Of a DNA stretch of 39,267 bases, positions 28,655 through 31,866 are shown piece after piece. Position numbers and translations under genes: made by a program. Position 1 is the stretch's first letter. Each line of letters starts with the position of its first letter. Source of the stretch: Ferrithrix thermotolerans DSM 19514 (GTDB taxonomy: Bacteria > Actinomycetota > Acidimicrobiia > Acidimicrobiales > CAIXPF01); assembly GCA_945906305.1 (NCBI GenBank), contig CAMDQT010000009.1:65828-105094 (forward strand), given 5' to 3'. A model generated the notes under the pieces. That model made no database searches. It saw only the letters and a list, made by a program, of their open reading frames with translations, and was not told the origin of the DNA.

Positions 28655-29830
28655 GTGAGCGCTGATGCCGCTATTCGTGCCCGAATCGGGGATATCCCAA
28701 CCCCGCAGTTCCTCACCACACCGGTGACCAGCATCGGTGCCCTGTCCGCCGCCCGGGTGGCCATCGTGACCACCGCCGGGCTGCGCCGTGGCGGTGATAT
28801 CGACCTGTGGTCACGGACGGACGGGTCTTTCACGGTGCTGCCCGGTGACGCCCGCGATGTGCAACTGTCGCACTTCTCGCCCAACTTCGACCGCTCCGGG
28901 TTCGCGGCCGATCTCAACGTGGTGTACCCCATCGATCGGCTCGCCGAGATGGCCGCCGCGGGGGAGATCGGCAGCGTCGCCAACGCCCACCTTTCGTTCA
29001 TGGGCGCGCAGACCGATGCCACGTTCTCCACCATCCTGCTCGACAGCGGCCCGGCGGCGGCGCGGGTGTTGCTCGACGACGGTGTGGATGTGGTGCTGCT
29101 GACACCGATTTGACCGCTGTGCACGCGCACCGTGGGAGTGCTGGCACGGGTCTTCGAACAAGCGGGCATGGCCACCGTGGGGCTGTCCTTGGTCCGCCGC
29201 CAGGCCGAGAACATCAAGGCGCCACGGATGTTGCACGGTGAGTTCCCGCTCGGCCGTCCGCTGGGCAGACCCGGAGACCCCCAGTTCCAAACCGACGTGA
29301 TCCGCCGGGCGTTCGCGCTGTTGGAACGAAGCGATGTTCCGGTCCTGGAGGATTACCCGGTGGTCATTGAAGACGAGACCGAGCAGCCCGCAGCGTGCCC
29401 GCTGCCGCCTCGACACGACCCGAACGTGCACCGCGCGGTGGACGAGGCGGTGGGGCTTCGCCCGGCGTACAACCGTCAACGACTAGCGGCGTCGGGCCGC
29501 ACCGCGGTGGGACGTCTGGCCGATGCCGATGGGATCGCGGCGCTGATCGAGCGGTTCGTCACCTTGGCCGACGGAGGGGACCTGAGCGCGGCCGGTTTCG
29601 ACGCCGACAGCGTGCTGGCCGCGGCGCAAGACGTGCGGGGCTATTACGAGGAGGCGGCGCTCGCGTTGTCGGACCATGTGCCCGCGGCCCGTCAGGTCGA
29701 ATCGTGGTTCTACGCCACAACGCAAACCGGGGCGGTCATCTGCGCCGCCGCCAACGCCCTCAAGGCGGCCGGCGCCAGCCAGGACATCTGGTATTTCATG
29801 CTGCCCGCGGCGCAGCATCGCAGCACCTGA
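28655..29830 (+). CDS. GrdB-like selenoprotein with in-frame UGA (glycine/betaine/sarcosine reductase B family)
   Basis: Read through one TGA (29111-29113), this is a single frame of 391 residues with selenocysteine at 153. Upstream of the TGA are FDRSGFAADLNVVYPIDRL, NAHLSFMGAQTD and DGVDVVLLTPI; directly after it come PLCTRTVGVLARVFEQAG and RQAENIKAPRMLHGEFPLG. This is the GrdB/selenoprotein B family, where a Sec-x-x-Cys-Thr motif sits at exactly this point; homologues with Cys at the same site are known. The motif here is U153-P-L-C156-T. A hairpin with a GG-starting loop follows 21 bases later. No other Grd subunits are near, so it is not classical glycine reductase; a redox role on an unknown substrate is inferred. 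Conventional annotation would give two fragments (28655-29113 and about 29132-29830). Confidence 0.85.
29130..29149 (+). promoter_or_regulatory. Candidate bacterial SECIS hairpin of the GrdB-like gene
   Basis: CCGTG (29130-29134) pairs with CACGG (29145-29149) around the 10-base loop GGAGTGCTGG. The loop starts with GG, and 21 bases separate it from the UGA. Bacterial SECIS elements need a short stem, a G in the first two loop positions and this kind of distance. Confidence 0.65.
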
Positions 29831-30807: not shown

Positions 30808-31866
30808 ATGCACGAGCCAAGCTTGGCCATCCCCGCCGATATCGCCGCCGCGCAGCACACCATCGTGGCGCGCTGGGCCACCCCGGGGTCATTCTGGAGC
30901 GCGGCGCAACGCCTCGCCATTGTCGAGATGGTCCGTCAGGCCCGCGACGCCGCGCCGCTCGCGGCGTGGGTCACTCCGTCGAGCGTTGAAGGCCTGCTCG
31001 ACGCCGCCTGCGTGCTACCCGCCCCCCTCAGCGATGCGATATGGCGGCTCACCAACCACCCTGGCACCCTCACCATCGACTGGTACCACCAACTGCTCGA
31101 CCGGGGCCTCGCCGCCGGGCCCTATGTGGAACTTGTCGCCGTGGTGGCCCAAGCCAACTGCGTGGACCGCTTCACCGACGCGCTGGGCATAGCCCGCCAT
31201 ATCCTGCCGACGCCCACGCCGGGCCAGCCTCGCGTCGCCATTGCCGAGGATTGCGAGGTTCGCGACCACTGGGTACCCACCGCGGCAGTCAAGGGCGCCA
31301 ACGTTCTCAAGGCGTTGAGCCTGCTGCCCTTCGAGAACGACTCGCGCCGCATCCTCTCCGACGCCCACTACGTGGCCGAGGCGGCCCTGCTCGGCGAGCT
31401 CACCGCCGGCCGCGCCGGTCTGAGCCGACCACAGATCGAACTGGTCGCCGCCCGCACCTCCACCCTCAACGAATGCTTCTATTGAGCGAGCAGCCACGCG
31501 CTTCTGCTCGGTCTGAGCGGACAAGCACTTGACATACCGGTCGGTTTTGAGGCGGTCAACGGGTCTGAGCACGGCGACGGTGCCATCGCCCATGGGGCGC
31601 TGCTCGCCCGGCTCGCCGAGGCCATGTGGCGCAACGACCCGGCCGAACTCGCCCTCACTCGCGCCGAGGCCGCTGCCGCGCTCGGAGCCGAAGCGCTGGT
31701 GCATGCCATTGCGGTCTGCGCCTTCTTCCACATGATGACGCGCCTCGCGGACGGCACCGGCACTCCGCTCGACCACGGCAGCGTGGCAGCGACCGAGGCC
31801 ATCCGTCACGCCATTGGCGTCAACAACTACGTGAGCCGCCGCCACCTCGCCCCCCGGCAAGGCTGA
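30808..31866 (+). CDS. AhpD-like selenoprotein with in-frame UGA (CxxU motif)
   Basis: Read through TGA 31483-31485, this is one frame of 352 residues with selenocysteine at 226. The residues around it are NECFY-U-ASSHALLLGL, giving Cys223-x-x-Sec226-x-x-x-His230. This is the active-site pattern CxxCxxxH of AhpD-like peroxidases with the second Cys replaced. A similar but motif-less repeat lies in the N-terminal half (YVELVAVVAQANCVDRFTDALG), so the protein has two CMD-type units. After the TGA the family pattern continues: AHGALLARLAEAMW, LTRAEAAAALGAEALVHAIAVCAFFHMMTRLAD. A hairpin with loop GGTCT follows at 24 bases. The start is uncertain (ATG 30808, GTG 30805 or ATG 30799); TTGGCT-N16-TAAACA (30751-30778) is a promoter candidate. 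Such proteins reduce peroxides or pass electrons through thiol pairs. Without recoding it would end just before its catalytic residue. Confidence 0.85.
31503..31521 (+). promoter_or_regulatory. Candidate bacterial SECIS hairpin of the AhpD-like gene
   Basis: TCTGCTC (31503-31509) pairs with GAGCGGA (31515-31521), seven pairs including one U-G, around the loop GGTCT. The loop starts with GG and is 24 bases from the UGA, matching bacterial SECIS geometry. Confidence 0.7.

Follow-up and report, generated by a model that had tools for sequence, protein, structure and literature searches.

Members of the PrdB family are known to reduce substrates. PrdB-like UxxC selenoproteins have been on record from ocean metagenomes since 2005 (PMC1088965), and a PF07355-type UxxC "proline reductase PrdB", so named by homology, is among the most abundant selenoproteins of the Sargasso Sea and GOS surveys, with 42 and 235 sequences (PMC1088965, PMC2398784). 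The survey passages on these proteins make no mention of a long form, of an extra domain or of an absence of partners (PMC1088965, PMC2398784). A further described system is the fluoroacetate reductase FarB, a GrdB-like Sec protein outside amino-acid reduction in which Sec is proposed to attack the activated C-F bond (PMC10838667). FarB resembles the protein described here in being a GrdB-like Sec protein, and is unlike it in having a GrdE-like FarE and in belonging to anaerobic Synergistota (PMC10838667). No description of a long, partner-less form was found in the open-licence papers, and this form is without a curated model, PrdB-like UxxC selenoproteins themselves being already known.

The gene of interest occupies positions 28655-29830 of the window, by which we mean the whole 39,267-nucleotide stretch analyzed, from an aquatic actinobacterium; all window features given below lie on its + strand. 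It is very probable that the gene encodes a 391-residue selenoprotein, with Sec as residue 153, that is used stand-alone.

Relationship to PrdB and GrdB

The protein is homologous to PrdB (TIGR04483) over residues 16-224 (28700-29326), with Sec in the same column and the UxxC shared. It differs in length (391 residues, as opposed to 238 in PrdB), in carrying an extra helical domain, in the residues that follow Sec (PLCT, where PrdB has GTCH), and in that its genome is without PrdA. With GrdB, GrdF and GrdH it shares the region of the Sec site, and it reaches the gathering score of their common model PF07355, but its match to GrdB is confined to the C-terminal part of the latter, and it scores 38-59 bits against cut-offs of 600-800, and is without GrdE and GrdA. 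When profiles were ranked, PrdB came first at 109.5 bits, ahead of GrdF, GrdH, the mixed selenoprotein B model and GrdB. Only PF07355 reached its cut-off (29.3 bits, cut-off 22), and every NCBIfam model fell below, including TIGR04483 itself (curated score 300 bits), TIGR01917 (38.5 bits against 602) and TIGR01918 (46.8 against 65). All 29 members of alignment A1 matched both TIGR04483 and PF07355. The initial annotation had placed the gene in the selenoprotein B (GrdB) family; the nearest named family is instead PrdB (109.5 versus 38-59 bits), and there is an additional C-terminal domain.

That domain, residues 241-391 (29375-29827), is confidently predicted to be all-helical (pLDDT 92) and has Cys248, Trp351 and Trp379 as invariant residues in the alignment. 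In the predicted model of the whole protein (pLDDT 93), Sec153 is positioned between a strand at 146-150 and a helix at 156-169. The C-terminal domain of approximately 150 residues had no match in Pfam, NCBIfam or PDB, and the protein had none in PDB by sequence. Structural comparison of the whole model and of the C-terminal domain gave best values of E 0.0095 and 0.87 with Foldseek and Z 7.9 and 4.2 with VIA-align, none above background, which is not proof of a new fold.

The internal TGA

The reading frame begins with GTG at 28655, ends with a stop at 29828-29830, and has a single internal stop, TGA at 29111-29113, which is codon 153; mechanical ORF calling breaks it into 152 and 232 codons. 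The division of an otherwise continuous frame by this one codon had been reported in the initial annotation, and both position and codon were the same on re-reading. Homologues can be aligned over their whole length, through the TGA. A search for the read-through protein across the same order (248 genomes) gave 57 matches that were full-length or nearly so at 43-100% identity, and an in-frame TGA was present in 57/57 full-length relatives. In a second set, consisting of named genome assemblies and partly overlapping with the genomes of the 57 matches, TGA was found at all 80 loci among the best 80 of 283 relatives, with 70 sites located by the motif and 10 by reading the frame. The motif across relatives was TP(V/I)-U-P-x-C-(T/S)-R, with alignment consensus LLTPV-U-PLCTRTV; in the window it reads UPLCT, flanked by the predicted strand and helix. 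Compared with the closest relatives, the ratio of pN to pS lay between about a quarter and two fifths on either side of the TGA.

These observations bear on two alternative explanations. A pseudogene or a sequencing error, in which the TGA would have arisen by nonsense mutation or by misreading of a TGC or TGT, would be consistent with the lone internal stop and with a mismatch at 29137 in the SECIS stem discussed below. It has a next to negligible probability when set against the TGA in every full-length relative, pN far under pS on both sides, and a covarying hairpin after the TGA; sequencing error for TGC or TGT, raised earlier as a possible refutation, is excluded because the same TGA recurs in dozens of independent assemblies. 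Alternatively, the TGA could be read as Trp or another residue, or two proteins could be produced with re-initiation at GTG 29132, a codon 18 nt past the TGA, and the long downstream ORF would fit the latter. We consider this highly improbable: homologues without the TGA have Cys in the column and never Trp, TGA terminates other genes such as the selA-like and selB ORFs, and re-initiation would drop the UPLC, which is among the most conserved parts of the protein.

Reading of the codon as selenocysteine is consistent with what occupies the column elsewhere. Two annotated PrdB genes, those of Peptoclostridium acidaminophilum and Ligilactobacillus salivarius, have TGA at this place in the alignment, and four distant relatives without an internal stop (Haematobacter, G174, G002 and G005, the last three from the same order) have Cys there, within CPxCHQ(S/T). 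The proposal that the TGA lies at the Sec/Cys site of the family in a UxxC(T) motif thus held, with U aligned at residue 153 in 57/57 and 80/80 (best 80 of 283) and Cys in the four relatives. Among long-form members no Sec-to-Cys replacement was seen, which suggests that the chemistry needs selenium.

Several related genes were encountered in the course of these comparisons. A shorter PrdB-like paralogue is present in the same genome (L020:499-1653, G000 contig C3), with its TGA in the same column (L020:1186, in VLLVPV-U-PVCHQS) and with CGAUC-GGUCU-GAUCG drawable 3′ of that TGA. Within the order there are also shorter GrdB-like proteins with Cys in place of Sec (L164, L165, L166), even in genomes that have Sec versions as well. 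There is also a second long-form clade at 39-44% identity over residues from about 25 to 376 (for example G213:C99:9434-10522 and G116:C10:16362-17426), with one TGA per member in every match listed. Hosts of the best 80 of 283 relatives were mostly MAGs of Acidimicrobiia or Actinomycetota, with some labelled Chloroflexi, Proteobacteria, Candidatus Dormiibacter and others. The gene was also found in records L097 and L143, titled as Klebsiella pneumoniae and Bifidobacterium breve MAGs; probably these titles are wrong or the contigs were mis-binned.

The SECIS hairpin and the selenocysteine machinery

Codon constraint, covariation, RNAalifold and the tree all pointed to a bacterial SECIS hairpin at 29125-29141, with six pairs in the family register (29125-29130 with 29136-29141) and a 5-nt loop CGUGN at 29131-29135; the distance from the UGA is 11 nt to the stem and 17 nt to the loop. 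In 85 non-redundant relatives synonymous variation collapsed at codons +4 to +10 (z −9 to −18), with weaker departures at codons −4, −1 and +20 and values otherwise near expectation. Codon +8 encodes Gly, Ser or Cys, yet is nearly always NGT. At codon +5, Arg CGC pairs with Val or Ala (GTG/GCG) at codon +9 and CGT with Thr (ACG) in 84/85; the choice between synonymous Arg codons is thereby tied to the residue found four codons later, such that RNA structure dictates protein sequence. Across 81 sequences the 6-bp stem was 99.6% paired with 41 double-changed cells, 0 of 500 shuffles were as good, and sliding the partner strand along destroyed the pairing. RNAalifold, unaided, returned the same 6-bp stem. 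On a tree built leaving out the hairpin codons, the two covarying bases had changed 12 and 11 times, and of seven independent contrasts on supported branches six were coupled and none opposite (sign test p 0.03). The published bSECIS model has a stem of 4-16 bp, a loop of 3-9 nt with G within its first two positions, and a distance of 16-37 nt from the UGA to the loop (PMC13188914); the family hairpin fits this model and has G-U at loop positions 2-3. The SECIS is thus unusually readable in this gene family.

The assembled sequence of the window departs from the family at one base of the stem. Position 29137 is A, against a T in nearly all relatives, making the pair 29129/29137 an A-A mismatch that is alone among the 81 sequences, and for this reason read-through here may be weaker. 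The window could form an alternative, a shifted 4-bp stem GCAC/GUGC with a 7-nt loop and the same loop start, which would also fit the published model (PMC13188914). Single-sequence folding of three Sec-UGA contexts gave no z-score of note, with the window sequence no better than shuffles, and an Rfam search of the window returned nothing relevant. A different hairpin had been drawn at first, with 5 bp (29130-29134 with 29145-29149) and a GG-starting loop, 16 bases past the UGA. It is not conserved and gives way to the family hairpin at 29125-29141; the corresponding columns (20-24 with 35-39 of alignment A2) were 46.7% paired across 81 relatives, not above shuffles.

The genome of the window (3.1 Mb, 97.9% complete) contains the expected decoding machinery. 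A tRNA-Sec scored 66.9 bits and ARAGORN also calls a tRNA-SeC; selB and selD were above cut-off, the latter on contig C41 with an internal TGA of its own. A SelA-like ORF near selB was recognised by reading and not by a model, so that of selABCD, whose presence had been suggested as a check, three were matched and selA was by reading only. The ORF between the SelA-like ORF and selB (L019:13900-15250) is a transporter of MFS type, not selD. In a sample of 59 related genomes, selB was above cut-off in 17/19 with a match to the protein versus 18/40 without (Fisher p 0.0015); the two exceptions were a genome with a short, partial match to selB and a genome that was 84% complete. Conserved TGA, Sec/Cys column, machinery and covarying hairpin together uphold the original reading of the UGA as selenocysteine.

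Partner genes and possible chemistry

Neither PF09338 (GrdE/PrdA type) nor PF04723 (GrdA) had a match in the window's genome or in 33 other gene-bearing genomes, with a control record scoring positive in both searches. Beyond close relatives, no conserved neighbour was found in 20 and 80 neighbourhoods (the 80 being the best of 283 relatives); the commonest neighbours, by reading, were of SDR, enoyl-CoA hydratase and acyl-CoA dehydrogenase types, near a minority of loci only. Because partners are absent from 34 genomes and neighbours are not conserved, we regard the protein as stand-alone, as the initial annotation had done from the lack of reductase partner genes. It remains very unlikely that this is a genuine subunit of a D-proline, glycine, betaine or sarcosine reductase with partners elsewhere in the genome. 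PrdB is the best named family and the UxxC site is the same, but PF09338 and PF04723 are missing from a genome that is 97.9% complete and from 33 others, NCBIfam scores are all under their cut-offs, and the long-form family carries the extra helical domain throughout. The protein resembles the catalytic half of the anaerobic proline and glycine reductases; with the partner subunits that they require missing, it is probably a selenium enzyme different from them. A reductase selenoprotein fold would then be in use without partners, and in bacteria whose surroundings suggest oxidative catabolism.

For the stand-alone selenoprotein the following mechanism may be proposed. The hairpin at 29125-29141 would bring in SelB with Sec-tRNA-Sec, and these would decode the UGA at 29111 as Sec, as conserved sequence suggests. 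The PrdB-like half would set Sec153 and Cys156 as a UxxC at a strand-helix junction, in the manner of thiol redox enzymes. With PrdB/GrdB and fluoroacetate reductase as models, the likeliest chemistry would be an attack by the selenolate on an activated carbon-heteroatom bond or an S- or N-oxidised bond of a small substrate. Cys156, or Cys248, which is invariant in the helical domain, might then resolve the selenium adduct to a selenosulfide, and a general thiol system would re-reduce it. The helical domain would presumably take the role of the pyruvoyl partner subunit in holding substrate, and the protein would act alone, outside any Stickland reductase complex. The proposed selenolate chemistry, taken by itself and argued by analogy, is tentative and falls slightly short of an even chance.

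About equally balanced for and against is a broader proposal: that these proteins are a widespread partner-less selenoenzyme family of Acidimicrobiia, with relatives in MAGs labelled as other phyla, that the helical domain replaced the pyruvoyl subunit and the family works as a reductase, and that some ocean "proline reductase" selenoproteins are misnamed members. Sequences called PrdB in the Sargasso Sea and GOS surveys may include the long-form family. The present gene calls into question the "proline reductase" label on abundant surface-water selenoproteins.

A competing possibility is that this UxxC selenoprotein is a general thiol/peroxide or disulfide oxidoreductase and not a reductase of small substrates. 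The UxxC at a strand-helix junction in the model and the neighbouring AhpD-related selenoprotein are consistent with it. We judge it unlikely, albeit with far more weight than the other alternatives, considering that the AhpD-related gene lies beside just one other member in the best 80 of 283 relatives and that the established role of the PrdB family is substrate reduction.

The AhpD-related gene is a second, unrelated selenoprotein gene of CFYUT type, 1 kb downstream at 30808-31866, matching NF041238 across its TGA at 311.8 bits (cut-off 175). As a functional partner it was considered and rejected, since it adjoins the gene at only 1/80 other loci (best 80 of 283). Its Sec-UGA is at 31483-31485, the residue after U is Ala and not Thr, and a hairpin with loop GGUCU follows at 31504-31520.
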